Shown here in pieces: positions 12,129 to 18,773 of a DNA stretch of 64,000 nt. This DNA comes from Pedosphaera sp. (lineage in GTDB: Bacteria; Verrucomicrobiota; Verrucomicrobiia; Limisphaerales; JADLHS01), in the NCBI GenBank assembly GCA_009695195.1, contig SIBJ01000010.1:1-64000 (forward strand), given 5' to 3'. How positions within the stretch are numbered: position 1 is the stretch's first letter; each line of letters starts with the position of its first letter. The notes under the pieces were generated by a model. It did no database searches, was not told the origin of the DNA, and saw nothing but the letters and a program-made list of their open reading frames with translations. The position numbers were made by a program, and so were the translations under genes.

Positions 12129-12129
12129 T

Positions 12130-12258
12130 TCCAACGGGCTGAAAGCCCGGGATGTGAATAGCCCGGGGTCAGGACGCGAGAGCGGACGCAGCCCCAGGTC
12201 TTCGGCCAAAAAGATTCTGCGCCCTGAAAAGGGTGCGACAAGTTTGGTTGGCAGCGCG
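12130..12258. repeat. palindromic repeat block, left flank of the helicase-methyltransferase gene
   Basis: The block contains the short palindromes GGGCTGAAAGCCC and TAGCCCGGGG and ends with GCGCCCTGAAAAGGGTGCGAC. Its reverse complement aligns with 16197-16290 on the other side of the large gene, sharing for example GAATCTTTTTG, CCCGGGCTAT and the CAGCCC palindrome. The two copies are in inverted orientation. Confidence 0.7.
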
Positions 12259-12284
12259 CGGGCGGCGGCGATAGGATTCCGGCC

Positions 12285-15200
12285 ATGAGCCAGACTGGGC
12301 AATCGGCGCGGGCGAAGCAGGCGTTTGTGCCGCTCTCCAAATCTCATCCGCTGCTCGCGGCTCAGTGGCATCCCACCAAAAACGGCAACGTCTCGCCGGA
12401 CGATGTCTGGGCGAACTACAGCAAGAAATTCTGGTGGCGATGTGACAAAGGGCATGAATGGGAAGCCCGCGTTCGCAATCGGGCGGTGAGCGGTTACGGC
12501 TGTCCTTATTGCTCAGGCAGGTTCATTCCTCCGGAAAGGTCGGTTGCAAAACTTCACCCTGAACTTTTGTTGGAGTGGCATCCCGCGAAGAATGGCTCAC
12601 TCAATCCCCAAGCACTCGGGCCGGGCAGTCGAGCGAAGATATGGTGGTTGTGCCGTAAGAACCAAGCCCATGAATGGCGAACCAGCCTTAGCAAAAGAAC
12701 CACAGAAGGGACTGGCTGCCCATTTTGTTCTGGTCGCAAGCGCAGTGAAGGGACTTCGTTCGCAGTCAGATTCTCGAATCTCATGAAGGAGTGGCATCCG
12801 ACGCTCAACGCACACCTTGACGCACGCACGATGATCGCCGAGAGCCGCGAGAAAGTGTGGTGGCAGTGCGCCAAAGATTCGAGCCACGTTTGGCAGACGC
12901 AGGCGCGAAGTCGAATCAGGGGAGACAAGGGCTGCCCGAAGTGCAAGCAAATGCTCGTGCCGAAGCGGACGACTCTCGACGTGTTCTCAGCGAGTTTAGC
13001 GTCCGAGTGGCATCCGACGAAAAACGACCGACTTCTTCCGAAAGACGTGAGCGCCGGAAGCACGACGAAAGTCTGGTGGCGCTGTTCCCGAAATCCGTCG
13101 CATGAATGGGAAGCTGCCGTTGGCGACCGATGCCGGGGCAATGGGTGTCCCTTTTGTGCAGGCCAAAGAGTTGACCTGTCGAACTCGCTTGCAGCAGTCC
13201 GCCCCGAACTTGCCGCGCAGTGGCATCCAACGAAGAACGAGAATTTGACGCCTGAGACAGTCACCGTGGGCAGCGCCAAGGTTGCGTGGTGGCGGTGTCC
13301 CACAAACCCAAAGCACGAATGGCGGACAAAAGTGTTGCATAGAACTCGGCGTATTGGATCAGGCTGTCCGTTTTGTGCGCGAGGTTTTGAGGGTGATGTC
13401 AACTCGCTGGCATCCCGTTTTCCAGTTCTTGCGGCCCAATGGCACAAGACAAAGAACGGTAAGCGCACCCCTGACAACGTAACTCCCGGTTCTGACCTCA
13501 AGGCGTGGTGGCAGTGTGACAAAGACGCGAGTCACGTTTGGGAAGCAAAAATCAAGAATCGCGTGATCCTCAAAAGCGGTTGCCCGATTTGCCGAGTCGG
13601 CTGGACTGTCGCTGGCATCCGGAGCTTCGTGGACTCACTCAAAGCGCATCTCTGCTCGTTCACTCCTGCCGAACTTTACGTTCTGTTTCAACAAAACGGT
13701 TTGCTCAGTGGCGACCGCAAGAGCCAGGCGTTTCTCGATGCGTTGGCGACGGGGCGATTTCCCTTCGAGGAGATCGAGAAGTTTTGCGAAGGACAGAAGT
13801 CGCTGGTGGATTCGTTCCTCGCGGATTCAACGCTCACGCTCGAAGCATTGAGCGAGACGAAGCCGGAGACGACGAAAGAAAATGAGTTGGGCGTCGTCGG
13901 CGAAGCGCAGGAAGAAAGCGTGGAGCTTCCCACGGCGGACACGGCGGACGTGCTCAAGTCGTTGCAGTCGCCGGTGGTCGTCTCCGCCGATCAGGAGGCG
14001 ATTGATTTCCTGGTGGCTTCGGCGTTGGCGAAAATTTGGAAGCACGCTTTCCGCGATGAGACCGTCGCCGTGGCGCAGGCGCGAGATTTCAAGGGCGATG
14101 CTTACGCGGAGCGGGTGCGGACGGAATTCCTCGCGGAGTATGAGCGCGTGAAGTCGCTGGAGATTCCGGCGGGTTATGAGTTCAAGGTTGAGGGCAAGCC
14201 GGCGCTGCCGAATCTCATGCAGCGATTGGTGGCGTCGCGGATTCAGCAGAAGCGGCGCGAGGGAAACTGGTCGGGCACGGGCGCGGGCAAGACACTTTCG
14301 GCGGTGCTGGCAAGTCGCGTGGTCGGCGCGAAGCTCACGGTGATTTGTTGTCCGAACAGCGTGGTTGAGGGTTGGAAGTCGGCGATTTTGAACGCGTTTC
14401 CAGACAGTCTGGTAGCGACGAAGACGTTCGCGCCGGATTGGGCGGCGATTGCAGGCGATGAGACGGGTTTCGGCAAAGCGGGGGCGGCGCATCGTTACGT
14501 TGTCGTGAATTACGAGGCGTTTCAGCAGGAAGATTCGGAGAAGAAGGTGCGGAAGTTCGCGAAGCACGAGGCGGCGGATTTCGTGGTGGTGGATGAGATT
14601 CATTTCACCAAGCAACGGACGGTGGAGAATCTTTCCAAGCGCAAGAAGCTGGTGACGGCGTTGATCAGCCTGGCCGCCGCGAAGAATCCGCAGTTGTGCG
14701 TGCTGGGGATGTCGGCGACGCCGGTGATCAACAATTTGCAGGAGGGCAAGAGTCTGGTGGAGATGGTGTCGGGTCTGGCGCACGACGACCTGAACACGCG
14801 CCCGACGGTGGCGCATTGCATGATGCTGCATCAGCGGTTGGTGACGCTGGGCACGCGGTGGCTGCCGGATTACCAGATCGTGTGCGACGTGCAGACGCCG
14901 GAAGTGGATTGTGGCGAACACTTGGAGGAGATCAAGGCGCTCGGACGAAGCGGCACGCCGCTGGAGTTGGAGCAGATTCTCACGCGCGTCCGGCTGCCGA
15001 TCATCCGGCAGAACATTCGCCCGAAGACGCTGCTCTACACGCACTACATTCAGGACATTGATTCGGCGCTCTACCAGGCTTTGGTCGCAGACGGCTGGCG
15101 CGTCGGCTTTTTCACGGGCGATGACAAGAGCGGGCTGGAAGGATTTCTGCATGGCGACGTGGATGTGTTGATTGGTTCGAGCGCCATCGCGACGGGCGTG

Positions 15201-16193
15201 GACGGACTTCAGGAAGTTTGCCAGCGGCTTGTCATCAATGTGCTGCCGTGGACGAACGCGGAGTTCGAGCAACTCAAGGGGCGCATCTACCGGCAGGGCC
15301 AGCACGCGGACAAGGTCACGGTGATCGTGCCGATCACTTACGCGGACGTGAACGGCCAGCGTTGGTCGTGGTGCGGATCGAAGATGCGGCGGCTGCATTT
15401 CAAGAAGTCCATCGCGGACGCGGCGGTGGACGGCGTCGTGCCGGAGGGTCACTTGCGCACGTCGGCACAGGCGTATCAGGACGTGATGGGCTGGTTGGAT
15501 CGGCTGACGACGGGGCGAGTCGAAGTGATTGAGCGACCGCGAATTGTTGTGCCGTTGCCGCAAGACGACGGCGGCGAAGTCGAGCGGCGCGCCCGGGAGT
15601 ATGGCGACTTCTCGGCTATGAACGGGCTATGGAATCGTAGCCGTAGCGCGACGACACAAACGCGGCTGCAACAGAATCCCGAAGAGTGGGCGCAGTATCA
15701 CACGCTGTATCGCGAGGCGCGGAAGGATTGGTCGGTCGTGCCGTTTGAGGAATTCATCCGCTGGGCGAAGCAGCGAAGCGATTACGTTATCGGCGACTTC
15801 GGATGCGGCGAAGCGAAAGTCGCGGAAGCGCTGGCGGATGCTCACACGGTTCACAGCTTTGATTACGTGGCGGCGAACGATGAAGTGACCGCGTGCGACA
15901 TGACGAAGACACCGCTGGAGGATGCGACGCTCGACGTGGCGTTGTTCTCGCTCTCGCTCATGGGCGCGAACTTCACGGATTACCTGCGCGAGGCGTGGCG
16001 GGTACTCAAGCTTGACGGACAGTTGCATGTCTTCGAGGCGACCTCGCGGTTTGGAAATCGTGATGCGTTTGTGACGGAACTGAAGAAGCTGGGATTCGCG
16101 AATGTCGAGATGCGAGACGCATGGAAGTTCACGCACATTTACGCGTTCAAGTCAGAGCGATTGCCAGCGGCGGATGTTGAAATGAGCTTCTGA
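12285..16193 (+). CDS. zinc-ribbon / SF2 (SNF2-like) helicase / Rrp8-type methyltransferase fusion, 1302 aa
   Basis: The ATG at 12285 has AGGA 8 bases upstream. Residues about 18-435 hold six copies of a 65-70 residue zinc-ribbon of the DUF4379 type: EWHPTKN, then WWxC, HEW and GCPxC in each copy. After a linker with no clear domain (about 440-640) comes an SF2 ATPase: Walker A GTGAGKTL (about 664), DEIH at 770-773, GMSATP (about 806), and a helicase C-terminal part with SSAIATGVDGLQ and QLKGRIYRQGQ (about 996). The end (about 1120-1302) is a SAM methyltransferase closest to eukaryotic Rrp8: DFGCGEAKVAEAL (about 1171), VTACDMTKTPLED, LSLMGANFTDYL and FEATSRFGNRDAF. Rrp8 methylates 25S rRNA adenine; the substrate here is unknown. 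ATP-driven movement on DNA or RNA followed by methylation is inferred. The gene sits between inverted repeat blocks and is followed by dinD, so a role in nucleic-acid defence or damage response is possible but unproven. Confidence 0.9.
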   Translation: MSQTGQSARAKQAFVPLSKSHPLLAAQWHPTKNGNVSPDDVWANYSKKFWWRCDKGHEWEARVRNRAVSGYGCPYCSGRFIPPERSVAKLHPELLLEWHPAKNGSLNPQALGPGSRAKIWWLCRKNQAHEWRTSLSKRTTEGTGCPFCSGRKRSEGTSFAVRFSNLMKEWHPTLNAHLDARTMIAESREKVWWQCAKDSSHVWQTQARSRIRGDKGCPKCKQMLVPKRTTLDVFSASLASEWHPTKNDRLLPKDVSAGSTTKVWWRCSRNPSHEWEAAVGDRCRGNGCPFCAGQRVDLSNSLAAVRPELAAQWHPTKNENLTPETVTVGSAKVAWWRCPTNPKHEWRTKVLHRTRRIGSGCPFCARGFEGDVNSLASRFPVLAAQWHKTKNGKRTPDNVTPGSDLKAWWQCDKDASHVWEAKIKNRVILKSGCPICRVGWTVAGIRSFVDSLKAHLCSFTPAELYVLFQQNGLLSGDRKSQAFLDALATGRFPFEEIEKFCEGQKSLVDSFLADSTLTLEALSETKPETTKENELGVVGEAQEESVELPTADTADVLKSLQSPVVVSADQEAIDFLVASALAKIWKHAFRDETVAVAQARDFKGDAYAERVRTEFLAEYERVKSLEIPAGYEFKVEGKPALPNLMQRLVASRIQQKRREGNWSGTGAGKTLSAVLASRVVGAKLTVICCPNSVVEGWKSAILNAFPDSLVATKTFAPDWAAIAGDETGFGKAGAAHRYVVVNYEAFQQEDSEKKVRKFAKHEAADFVVVDEIHFTKQRTVENLSKRKKLVTALISLAAAKNPQLCVLGMSATPVINNLQEGKSLVEMVSGLAHDDLNTRPTVAHCMMLHQRLVTLGTRWLPDYQIVCDVQTPEVDCGEHLEEIKALGRSGTPLELEQILTRVRLPIIRQNIRPKTLLYTHYIQDIDSALYQALVADGWRVGFFTGDDKSGLEGFLHGDVDVLIGSSAIATGVDGLQEVCQRLVINVLPWTNAEFEQLKGRIYRQGQHADKVTVIVPITYADVNGQRWSWCGSKMRRLHFKKSIADAAVDGVVPEGHLRTSAQAYQDVMGWLDRLTTGRVEVIERPRIVVPLPQDDGGEVERRAREYGDFSAMNGLWNRSRSATTQTRLQQNPEEWAQYHTLYREARKDWSVVPFEEFIRWAKQRSDYVIGDFGCGEAKVAEALADAHTVHSFDYVAANDEVTACDMTKTPLEDATLDVALFSLSLMGANFTDYLREAWRVLKLDGQLHVFEATSRFGNRDAFVTELKKLGFANVEMRDAWKFTHIYAFKSERLPAADVEMSF

Positions 16194-16196
16194 TTG

Positions 16197-16290
16197 TGTC
16201 GCCCTTACAGGGCTTGGAATCTTTTTGCCGATTAACCCGGGGCGTTGCCCCGGGCTATCATCTTTCGGGCGTTCAGCCCTTCCGCCTGCA
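16197..16290. repeat. palindromic repeat block, right flank of the helicase-methyltransferase gene
   Basis: The block starts 4 bases after the stop codon. It contains GCCCTTACAGGGC, CCCGGGGCGTTGCCCCGGG and GGGCGTTCAGCCC. It aligns to the reverse complement of 12130-12258, so the two flank the gene as imperfect inverted repeats. Similar palindromes are common between genes in this kind of genome and do not by themselves prove transposition. Confidence 0.7.
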
Positions 16291-16413
16291 TCCGGTTTCG
16301 GCGCGACGAGTTCAATCAGCGGGCATCCCGCCTGCGTTTAACTTCGGCGCAGTGGAACTTTCAAAAACGGGATTTGGGGTTGCACGGTCAGGAGAGGGTG
16401 TTAGTCTCGAATC

Positions 16414-17250
16414 GTGAGCGGCGAAGCTTCAACCGAGAACCCATTCCATTTGCAGCCGGACAAACCCGGATTTGAGGCGCTTTCCAAGACGAATGGTTTC
16501 CGTTTCTGGTGGGCGTCCGAACTGGCCGTCACGCTGGGCTACGAAAGCTTGAACAGTTTCCGCAAGGCCGTCGAGCGGGCGATGATCGCGCTGACCAGCT
16601 TGAACATTCCGGTGTTCGACAACATCGTTCAGGAGCAACGCGAGGCGGATGGCAAAACGATTGTGGACTACCGCCTTTCTCGTTTCGCGTGTTACCTGGC
16701 AGCGATGAACGGCGATCCCAAGAAGCAACAAGTGGCGCAGGCTCAGGCTTATTTTGTGAAGTGGGCGGAGGCGTGCCGGTTGTATCTCGAACAGGCGGAT
16801 GGCGTGGAGCGCGTGGCGATTCGCGGGGAAATCTCCGAGCACGAACGCACGTTGTCCGGCACGGCCAAGGCGGCGGGTGTGACGGAGTATGGTTTGTTTC
16901 AAAACGCGGGCTATCGCGGTCTTTACAACATGGATTTGTGGCAGGTCCGTCGGCGTAAAGGCGTGCCACAGGGGCGCACACCACTGGACTTCATGGGCAA
17001 GACCGAACTGGCGGCGAATTTGTTTCGCGTGACGCAAACCGAGGAAAAAATCCGCGCGGCGAAAATCCGCGGACAAAAACCTTTGGAACGTACCGCCGAG
17101 GACGTGGGACGTGAAGTTCGTCGCACGATGGTCAAGATCAGCGGCAAACGCCCGGAGGAGTTGCCGCCCGCCGAGGACATCAAGGAAGTTCATAAGAAGC
17201 TGAAGTCCACGCACCGTGAGATTCGGAAATTGGACGGGCCGAAGGCGTAG
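16414..17250 (+). CDS. dinD: DNA damage-inducible protein D (DinD)
   Basis: GTG at 16414 is the only possible start, because an in-frame stop lies 10 bases upstream. The 278-residue protein has an N-terminal BRO-like domain (RFWWASELAVTLGYESLNSF) and follows E. coli DinD to its end: YRLSRFACYLAAMNGDP, QAYFVKWAEACR, ISEHERTLSGTAKAAGV, FQNAGYRGLYN, FMGKTELAANLFRVTQTEEK and VGREVRRTM...RPEELP. E. coli DinD is SOS-induced and inhibits RecA activities after filament formation. I saw no clear LexA-type box upstream. It lies downstream of the helicase-methyltransferase gene, separated by the repeat block, so cotranscription is uncertain. Confidence 0.92.
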   Translation: MSGEASTENPFHLQPDKPGFEALSKTNGFRFWWASELAVTLGYESLNSFRKAVERAMIALTSLNIPVFDNIVQEQREADGKTIVDYRLSRFACYLAAMNGDPKKQQVAQAQAYFVKWAEACRLYLEQADGVERVAIRGEISEHERTLSGTAKAAGVTEYGLFQNAGYRGLYNMDLWQVRRRKGVPQGRTPLDFMGKTELAANLFRVTQTEEKIRAAKIRGQKPLERTAEDVGREVRRTMVKISGKRPEELPPAEDIKEVHKKLKSTHREIRKLDGPKA

Positions 17251-17321
17251 AAAGCACCGTAGGACTTACGGAGCGCGATTTAACGGTTTAACGATTCCAC
17301 GCGGGCCATTATCCTGCGCCC

Positions 17322-18773
17322 ATGATTTCGCGGGCCAAATCCGAAGCGCTGTTCGCCGAGGCGCTCAAGTACATTCCGGGTGGCGTCAATTCTCCCGTGC
17401 GCGCGTTTCGCGCCGTGGGCGGCAAACCGTTCTTCGTCAATCGCGCCAGCGGCTGCCGCGTGTGGGACGTGGATGGGAACGAATACATTGATTACGTCGG
17501 CACGTGGGGGCCGGCGATTCTCGGGCACGCGCATCCCAAAATCATTTCCGCCATCAAGGCCGCCGCCGATCACGGCACGAGTTTTGGCATTCCGAATCCG
17601 GGCGAGGTCACGATGGCAAAACTCATCTGCTCGCTTGTGCCCAGCGTGCAGAAGGTGCGCATGACCAACTCCGGCACGGAAGCCTGCATGAGCGCCATCC
17701 GCCTCGCGCGCGGGTTCACGAAGCGCGACAAGATCATCAAGTTCGACGGCTGCTATCACGGCCACGGCGATTCGTTGCTCGTCAAAGCCGGCAGCGGCGC
17801 GCTCACATTCGGTCATCCGGACAGTCTGGGTGTGCCGGCGGATTTTGCGAAACTCACCCTCGTCTTGCCTTACAACGAGGCCGAGCCGCTCAAAGCCGCG
17901 TTCGCGGCGAACAAAAACGAGATCGCGTGCATCATCGTCGAGCCGGTGGCGGGTAACGCGGGATTGTTCGTCCCCAAACCGGGCTGGCTGGAATTCCTGC
18001 GCGAGATCACCAAAGCCAACGGCGCGCTGCTCATCTTCGACGAAGTGATGACTGGTTTCCGTCTCGCGCCCGGCGGCGCGCAGGAGCGCTTTGGCATCAC
18101 GCCGGATTTGACGTGCCTGGGAAAAATCATCGGCGGCGGTCTGCCGGTGGGCGCTTTCGGCGGGCGGGCGGACATCATGGATTATCTCGCGCCGCTTGGC
18201 CCGGTGTATCAGGCGGGAACGCTCAGCGGCAATCCGCTGGCGATGGCGGCGGGGATTGCGAATCTGCAAGAACTTTGTGGGTTGGACGCAGGTGGAGCGA
18301 ACCCTCACCCCGGCCCTCTCCCTTTCCGAAAGGGAGAGGGAGAATCATCCTCAGCCGGACGCCATGCTCATGCACTCACGACAACTGGCGACCGTGCGAA
18401 AGCTGTTCCCTCTCCTGGGGGAGAGGGTCAGGGTGAGGGCGGTCTAAAAAACAAATACCTCCTGCTCGAACAACTCGGCGCGTTGCTCGAATCCGGGATG
18501 AAGGACGCCGCGAAATCCGCGGGCGCGCCGGTGACGTTCAACCGCTGCGGTTCGATGTTCTGCGGTTACTTCACCGGCGAGCCGGTGTGGAATCTTGCCG
18601 ACGCGATGAAAGCCGACCGCGAACGGTTCAAGAAATTCTTCCACGGCATGTTGGACGCGGGCGTTTATCTCGCGCCGTCGCAATTCGAGGCTGGTTTCAT
18701 GTCCACGGCTCACAGCGAGGCGGACATTGCCAAGACGGTGAGCGCGGCGGCGCAGGTGATGAAGGGACTTTAA
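17322..18773 (+). CDS. hemL: glutamate-1-semialdehyde 2,1-aminomutase with an in-frame repeat insertion
   Basis: This PLP enzyme makes 5-aminolevulinate from glutamate-1-semialdehyde in the C5 heme pathway. Diagnostic segments are [13 protein letters not shown] at the N-terminus, [56 protein letters not shown] and the PLP lysine K268 in [17 protein letters not shown]. The protein has 483 residues, about 50 more than usual. The excess is one block (about residues 325-375) that reads NPHPGPLP...KGEGE and is translated from an intergenic-type palindromic repeat. The block falls after the ANLQEL helix in the C-terminal domain, and all catalytic parts are intact, so the enzyme may still work. Confidence 0.95.
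18296..18446. repeat. palindromic repeat inserted in frame inside hemL
   Basis: The left arm (about 18300-18341) has CCCTCACCCCGGCCCTCTCC and a small GGGAGAGGG palindrome. The right arm (about 18408-18441) has the inverse, GGAGAGGGTCAGGGTGAGGG. Between the arms is about 65 bases of unrelated sequence. The insertion has a length and phase that leave the hemL frame open. Confidence 0.85.

Follow-up and report, generated by a model that had tools for sequence, protein, structure and literature searches.

A sporadic prokaryotic protein family joining an exchangeable repeat array, a Snf2-type motor and an Rrp8-type methyltransferase domain

Introduction

Type I and ISP restriction-modification (RM) enzymes combine exchangeable target recognition with a methyltransferase and a superfamily 2 (SF2) motor. 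Here we analyze a gene that joins an N-terminal array of zinc ribbons, a Snf2-type motor and an Rrp8-type methyltransferase domain, located in the first 64,000 nucleotides of contig SIBJ01000010.1 of Pedosphaera sp. (assembly GCA_009695195.1); this whole stretch is referred to below as the window. We read the protein as a DNA-targeted translocase-methyltransferase with exchangeable specificity, around which a modification system directed at DNA and not yet described would be built, a reading in which our confidence is about even.

The closest described systems each share part of this design. Type I, ISP and IIG RM enzymes follow the same exchangeable-recognition logic, and an MmeI-like gene adjoins relatives of the window protein in Myxococcota; the window protein nevertheless differs from them in its methyltransferase family, in having a repeat array rather than a target recognition domain (TRD), and in having no nuclease. 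Its motor has a fold in common with Snf2 translocases such as Mot1, Ino80, Isw1 and RapA, although sequence identity is ~14% and the accessory domains differ. Local motor similarity also extends to DISARM (DrmD) and the BrxH/DpdE helicases, and the Myxococcota partner resembles DrmMI, but scores fall far under the cut-off and DrmA, DrmB and DrmC do not recur near the family. CapR, DUF723 and DUF4379 zinc fingers have been proposed to be modular DNA-binding parts of homing endonucleases (PMC10448857; PMC12350094); PMC10448857 mostly writes DUF4397 (PF14344) and once 723/4379, and we take DUF4379 as meant. The T5orf172, HNH and Vsr enzymes described there carry the same kinds of array, for which modular exchange was proposed, whereas in the window protein their nuclease effector is replaced by a motor and a methyltransferase. 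Finally, Rrp8 produces N1-methyladenosine (m1A) in 25S/28S rRNA of yeast and human (PMC6085284). The window protein's domain shares the fold of Rrp8/nucleomethylin (PF05148; 2zfu), its DFGCG, FD, CD and SLMGxN motifs and its N-terminal helices (YH...W...P), but is fused to a DNA-type motor and a putative recognition array, and occurs only sporadically in prokaryotes.

In the literature we found no description of DUF4379 combined with a helicase and a methyltransferase, of Rrp8 combined with a helicase or SNF2 motor, or of such a combination with NUMOD-like arrays; this absence is weak evidence, as the search covered few subscription papers. What appears to be new is the architecture and its evolution rather than a function.

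Results and Discussion

Domain architecture and conservation of active sites

The original prediction, made from the DNA letters and their translations, had placed six zinc ribbons, an SF2/SNF2-like ATPase and an Rrp8-type domain in one reading frame. This frame is intact (Table 1), and all three parts exceed their Pfam cut-offs: six DUF4379 stretches score 377.8 bits (cut-off 24.5), ResIII and Helicase_C are both above threshold, and Methyltransf_8 (PF05148) is matched at residues 1107-1289 with 161.4 bits (cut-off 27). The motor motifs quoted in that prediction are all present in the order given: GTGAGKT, DEIH, GMSATP (residues 808-813) and QLKGRIYRQGQ. Each ribbon carries a conserved C-H-C-C set, and the zinc ligands are invariant or nearly invariant across relatives, so that the N-terminus has the repeated, over-threshold and ligand-bearing character of a DUF4379 protein. 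Pfam-type domain searches assigned the window protein neither a nuclease nor a recombinase or transposase domain.

Among 60 aligned relatives, all keep the Walker A lysine and threonine, the DE pair, the residues of the SAT motif, the arginines of motif VI and the residues of S-adenosylmethionine (SAM) motif I, and the other positions checked are kept in 51-60. Taken together, most of the motor and SAM positions checked are kept in 58-60 relatives. Because the catalytic and SAM-binding motifs persist in all or nearly all of these relatives, their presence is not due to chance, and from its sequence the enzyme looks active in both halves.

Structural models were built with AlphaFold using alignments of relatives. 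The core (residues 438-1302) was modelled with a mean predicted local distance difference test score (pLDDT) of 81 and a predicted template modelling score (pTM) of 0.66. Single repeats of the array reached a pLDDT of 83, whereas the pTM of the array was 0.32, and the mutual placement of the repeats is therefore not fixed by the model. A Foldseek search with the core returned, as its 50 best matches in the Protein Data Bank (PDB), Snf2-family motors throughout except for the Rrp8 structure 2zfu; Mot1 was the top match, and Ino80, Isw1, Snf2h, Chd1, CSB, RapA and their kin were also matched. With two RecA-like lobes, intact Walker A, DExH, SAT and Q..R..R motifs and this fold, the modelled motor has the features of a Snf2-type SF2 translocase. 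The predicted ATPase thus stands as an intact SF2 motor, but is better described as Snf2/translocase-like than as a generic SF2 helicase.

Sequence and predicted fold both clearly assign the C-terminal domain to the Rrp8 type, well ahead of any other methyltransferase. The closest solved structure to the window domain is human RRP8/nucleomethylin (PDB 2zfu; phmmer E 6e-32), with the next unrelated methyltransferase at E 0.49. The family profile gives E 7e-51 for 2zfu and 0.0068 for the runner-up methyltransferase, and the predicted fold superimposes on 2zfu with a template modelling (TM) score of 0.84, a root-mean-square deviation of ~2 A and 34-35% identity (Foldseek against the PDB). The original prediction had named a failure of this domain to join Rrp8 in a tree as evidence against it; judged by sequence and fold, the Rrp8 likeness is borne out.

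Exchange of N-terminal arrays on a conserved core

A point missed in the original prediction is that the N-terminus is an interchangeable cassette on a conserved core. The relatives L011 and L012 have motors that are 96% identical (synonymous divergence, dS, 0.25), compared with 52% for their arrays, where dS is saturated at ~3.2. Their nucleotide identity drops from ~95% to 40-65% across codon 450 and climbs back to 77% in the first 50 codons, which is the pattern of a replaced cassette with a sharp boundary near codon 450. Moreover, the core nearest to that of L011 is L012, but its nearest array is that of L013 (78%), such that the core and array orders conflict. Relatives in Pseudanabaena, with arrays of 5-8 INT_rpt repeats, likewise show 90-96% identity in the motor and 61-67% in the array.

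Four kinds of N-terminus are found on the one core: DUF4379 ribbons (in most members), INT_rpt repeats, DUF723-like repeats, and sigma-4/RpoA-CTD-like segments with one ribbon (L020). L066 has a mixed array of DUF723-like and INT_rpt repeats, and repeat number ranges across arrays from 2 to 14. The array kind requires 3 to 5 changes on the motor tree, which is a quick tree with some long branches, and one clade with full support, made up of six chlamydial rows and a single Dependentiae row, includes both DUF4379 and INT_rpt arrays. In the INT_rpt repeats the scaffold is invariant, and about a dozen positions vary strongly. Where the ratio of nonsynonymous to synonymous rates (omega) is defined for both parts, it is in most pairs higher for the array than for the motor, yet the omega of the array is below 1 in every pair. 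The N-termini thus behave as modular arrays, with repeats that are exchangeable and change more quickly than the effector.

In three marine archaeal genomes (L072/L128, L083 and L130) the core lacks an array, and three to seven INT_rpt array genes stand next to it as genes of their own, whereas array and core are fused in L131, L132, L133 and L075. One effector with several array subunits is how exchangeable addresses would be expected to look. In these ammonia-oxidizing archaea the INT_rpt gene clusters encode almost purely repeats, and many of the genes overlap. In the planctomycete relatives L020 (6617-9448) and L049, the N-terminus is long and comprises sigma-70 region 4 and RpoA-CTD-like segments, followed by a single ribbon. 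At L043 (11919-14150) a divergent protein made of repeats, with matches to DUF4379 (six) and DUF723 (three), is encoded ~1 kb from an INT_rpt-type core.

Sporadic distribution of the family

A genome scan identified at least 79 loci, in Verrucomicrobiota, Planctomycetota, Myxococcota, Cyanobacteriota, Chloroflexota, Chlamydiota, Bacteroidota, Spirochaetota, Actinomycetota, archaea and others, and three plasmids carry a relative. The family is rare and sporadic. A strong Rrp8 domain occurs in 1 of 289 Verrucomicrobiota genomes sampled, a relative occurs in 8 of 200 genomes of the Nitrosopumilus family, and 56 other genomes of the host order contained no close relative, just weak motor similarity. 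Carriers that were checked have one copy each, 2 of 11 with a second Rrp8-domain match. The original prediction had named ubiquitous single-copy housekeeping homologues as a finding that would count against it, and this rarity rules out a housekeeping gene. A phage gene is likewise ruled out, in that viral collections yielded no full-length relative, just arrays or distantly related motors. In the motor tree, the Verrucomicrobial clade of the window groups with Thermodesulfobacteriota, Cyanobacteria, Planctomycetota and Chloroflexota, a mixture of phyla that points to horizontal transfer.

Restriction-type partners in particular lineages

The Myxococcota clade, which includes one Acidobacteriota row, has an MmeI-like type IIG gene directly upstream in 13 loci, often overlapping or nearly so; at a fourteenth locus (L030) only the end of an MmeI-like gene is present, at the contig edge and 3.5 kb away. 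These partner proteins keep GNPP, their TRD region is among their least conserved parts, and the ExK nuclease motif was not found at the aligned place. The ribbons of this clade are not exchanged, which is consistent with the partner's TRD carrying specificity. Elsewhere, an Mrr_cat endonuclease gene lies immediately downstream in L066, a related PDC-S02 protein follows the core in L069, and proteins read by eye as DarT/DarG are encoded downstream at L080.

Such neighbors, together with the local resemblance of the helicase to DrmD, BrxH and DpdE and of the MmeI-like partner to DrmMI, could indicate that the protein is an accessory subunit of an ordinary RM or DISARM-like system. We consider this improbable, because most copies have no such partner, the MmeI-like proteins lack the ExK motif where it is expected, and the helicase scores 36 bits against a DrmD cut-off of 610; DrmA, DrmB and DrmC are not recurrent neighbors. 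The window itself contains no nuclease domain in the protein or in a neighbor, and an RM-type partner is found in some lineages only. By these tests the protein belongs to neither RM nor DISARM, although by analogy it would operate as RM motor-methyltransferases do, with a different recognition part and a methyltransferase of a different family.

A predicted DNA-targeted translocase-methyltransferase

The earlier suggestion of a protein that may bind nucleic acid, travel along it and methylate it agrees with the predicted folds, with the intactness of the motifs and with how the arrays have evolved. A DNA-type context is indicated by the homing-endonuclease-like arrays (PMC10448857), by sigma-70 region 4 in the L020 N-terminus and by the restriction-type partners. 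We propose that the N-terminal array would bind particular DNA and so define the target; that the Snf2-type motor, judging by its fold and intact motifs, would be driven by ATP along double-stranded DNA, starting from this site or acting at it, and would remodel or locally open the DNA; and that the Rrp8-type domain would then methylate, with SAM as donor, a base exposed there. Since Rrp8 makes m1A, the methylated position may be a base-pairing one, for instance N1 of adenine. No obvious nuclease adjoins most copies, and the effect may therefore be methylation itself or recruitment of host factors. The protein probably has a role in genetic conflict, most likely in marking or disabling incoming DNA, with specificity altered by array exchange. 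In variants of this scheme, archaea would employ array subunits encoded separately, Myxococcota would add an MmeI-like DNA methyltransferase, and L066 would add an Mrr-type nuclease.

Several observations weigh against this proposal. We found no experiment or paper on any family member. The original prediction suggested a new defense or modification system and proposed to look for clustering of homologues in defense islands; across all loci, defense families were not more common within 3 kb than at 5-12 kb, in a coarse comparison that counts families rather than proteins. General defense-island membership is consequently not supported, and the defense claim has partial support, from restriction-type partners or defense neighbors in particular lineages. 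Given omega values below 1, we make no claim of positive selection on the arrays, for which rapid change and replacement are what is seen. The methyltransferase domain is missing in L063, L081, L079, L085 and L087 (chlamydial and Singulisphaera proteins that stop after the motor), and from L063, L081 and L087 it appears that the domain is not always needed. In addition, Foldseek with the array matched only solved DUF4379 proteins, which come from trypanosome mitoribosome assembly particles, a ribosomal-RNA setting.

This last result, with the rRNA activity of Rrp8 itself, makes an RNA target possible. The protein could be an RNA-directed enzyme whose array binds rRNA, tRNA or mRNA, whose motor remodels an RNA-protein complex and whose Rrp8 domain makes m1A in RNA. 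We regard this as unlikely, given that the motor fold is Snf2-type, that the repeats for which arrays are swapped, INT_rpt and DUF723-like, are of kinds found in integrases and homing nucleases, that restriction-type partners occur, that the family is rare and sporadic, and that arrays diversify while rRNA is conserved.

The members without a methyltransferase could also fit a targeted DNA remodeller or transcription regulator, in which the array positions a Mot1/RapA-like motor to displace proteins and methylation marks DNA or protein for regulation rather than defense. Mot1 as the top fold match with RapA among the matches, the sigma-4- and RpoA-like modules of L020, helix-turn-helix-like stretches seen by eye in L037/L045 and the solitary position of most copies among ordinary genes all favor such a role, but the very sporadic distribution and rapid array exchange would be unusual in a host regulator, and some lineages have restriction-type partners. 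We judge a regulator to be about as unlikely as an RNA-directed enzyme.

A bolder form of the DNA-targeting proposal, which we hold only tentatively and think doubtful, is that of reprogrammable, protein-coded targeting. Each repeat would read a short stretch of DNA, arrays would be exchanged or, in marine archaea, kept as separate 'address' subunits, and the motor and Rrp8-type domain would add a methyl group that blocks base pairing (such as m1A), so that foreign DNA is silenced or stopped and not cut. If DNA targeting holds, the family would give prokaryotes a means, distinct from CRISPR, Argonaute and classic restriction enzymes, of directing an enzyme to DNA through protein repeats that can be exchanged, its effector would be a methyltransferase otherwise known mainly from eukaryotic rRNA maturation, and its arrays would be candidate new programmable DNA-binding modules. 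The family also raises the question of whether nucleolar Rrp8 descended from an enzyme of genome conflict.

The locus in the window

Table 1. Positions in the window of the gene, the parts of its product and the surrounding features.
Feature	Positions	Strand	Basis or remark
Whole gene, array / Snf2-type motor / Rrp8-type methyltransferase protein	12285..16193	+	ATG start, 1302 aa, no internal stops
Six DUF4379 zinc ribbons, residues 17-437	12333..13595	+	Pfam; AlphaFold; Foldseek
Linker domain, mostly helical, residues 438-620	13596..14144	+	Array exchange stops at its start, ~codon 450
Snf2-type SF2 motor, residues 621-1085	14145..15539	+	Pfam, fold model, alignment of relatives
Walker A GTGAGKT, residues 664-670	14274..14294	+	K, T in 60/60 relatives
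DEIH (motif II), residues 770-773	14592..14603	+	D, E in 60/60 relatives
QLKGRIYRQGQ (motif VI), residues 996-1006	15270..15302	+	Q, R, R in 60/60 relatives
Rrp8-type (Methyltransf_8) methyltransferase domain	15600..16190	+	Pfam, phmmer, profile, fold
DFGCGE, SAM-binding motif I, residues 1171-1176	15795..15812	+	D, G, G in 60/60 relatives
SLMGAN, counterpart of human RRP8 SLMGTN	15954..15971	+	Sequence comparison
5.2-kb insertion that separates a DUF192 gene from hemL and contains this gene and a DinD-like one	12129..17321		Comparison with relatives
DinD-like / PDC-S13 gene, same insertion	16414..17250	+	Not a demonstrated partner
Upstream arm, imperfect inverted repeat bracketing the gene	12191..12240		Score 36 vs shuffled 97.5% of 26
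Downstream arm of the same inverted repeat	16197..16243		Same comparison

In the relatives G005 and G001, 58-61 bp separate the DUF192 gene from hemL, and the window copy thus sits in a clean insertion. DinD is not supported as a constant partner, since in L011 and L012 the core gene is followed by another gene, not a DinD-like one. Inverted repeats bracket three Verrucomicrobial copies, those of the window, L011 and L013; in L013 the arms (-118 to -24 and +1 to +95) are nearly perfect over 95 bp. A role for them as constant cassette ends is not supported, as they are missing in L012 and in L014-L017, and a dispersed repetitive extragenic palindrome (REP) is ruled out, the motif CGCCCTTACAGGGCTT occurring just once in the window's genome. 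No Rfam RNA was found beside the gene.

The insertion and the bracketing repeats, along with array kinds that occur in phage integrases or homing nucleases (as the Pfam name of INT_rpt also indicates), could reflect a selfish or mobile-element protein, with the array and motor aiding the gene's own spread or integration and the methyltransferase protecting or priming its sites. The protein, however, has no nuclease, recombinase or transposase domain, some relatives reside in chromosomal operons with restriction-type partners, and the repeats are absent from L012 and other copies. We give this alternative a low probability, like that of the accessory subunit.

Downstream of the insertion, hemL (17322-18773) contains an in-frame insert of ~55 codons at about 18276-18449, with palindromic repeat sequence (PHPGPLP...GEGQGEGG). 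The hemL genes of G007, G002 and G005 have other inserts at the same place and that of G001 has none; by sequence comparison, this site is an insertion hotspot inside a housekeeping enzyme.

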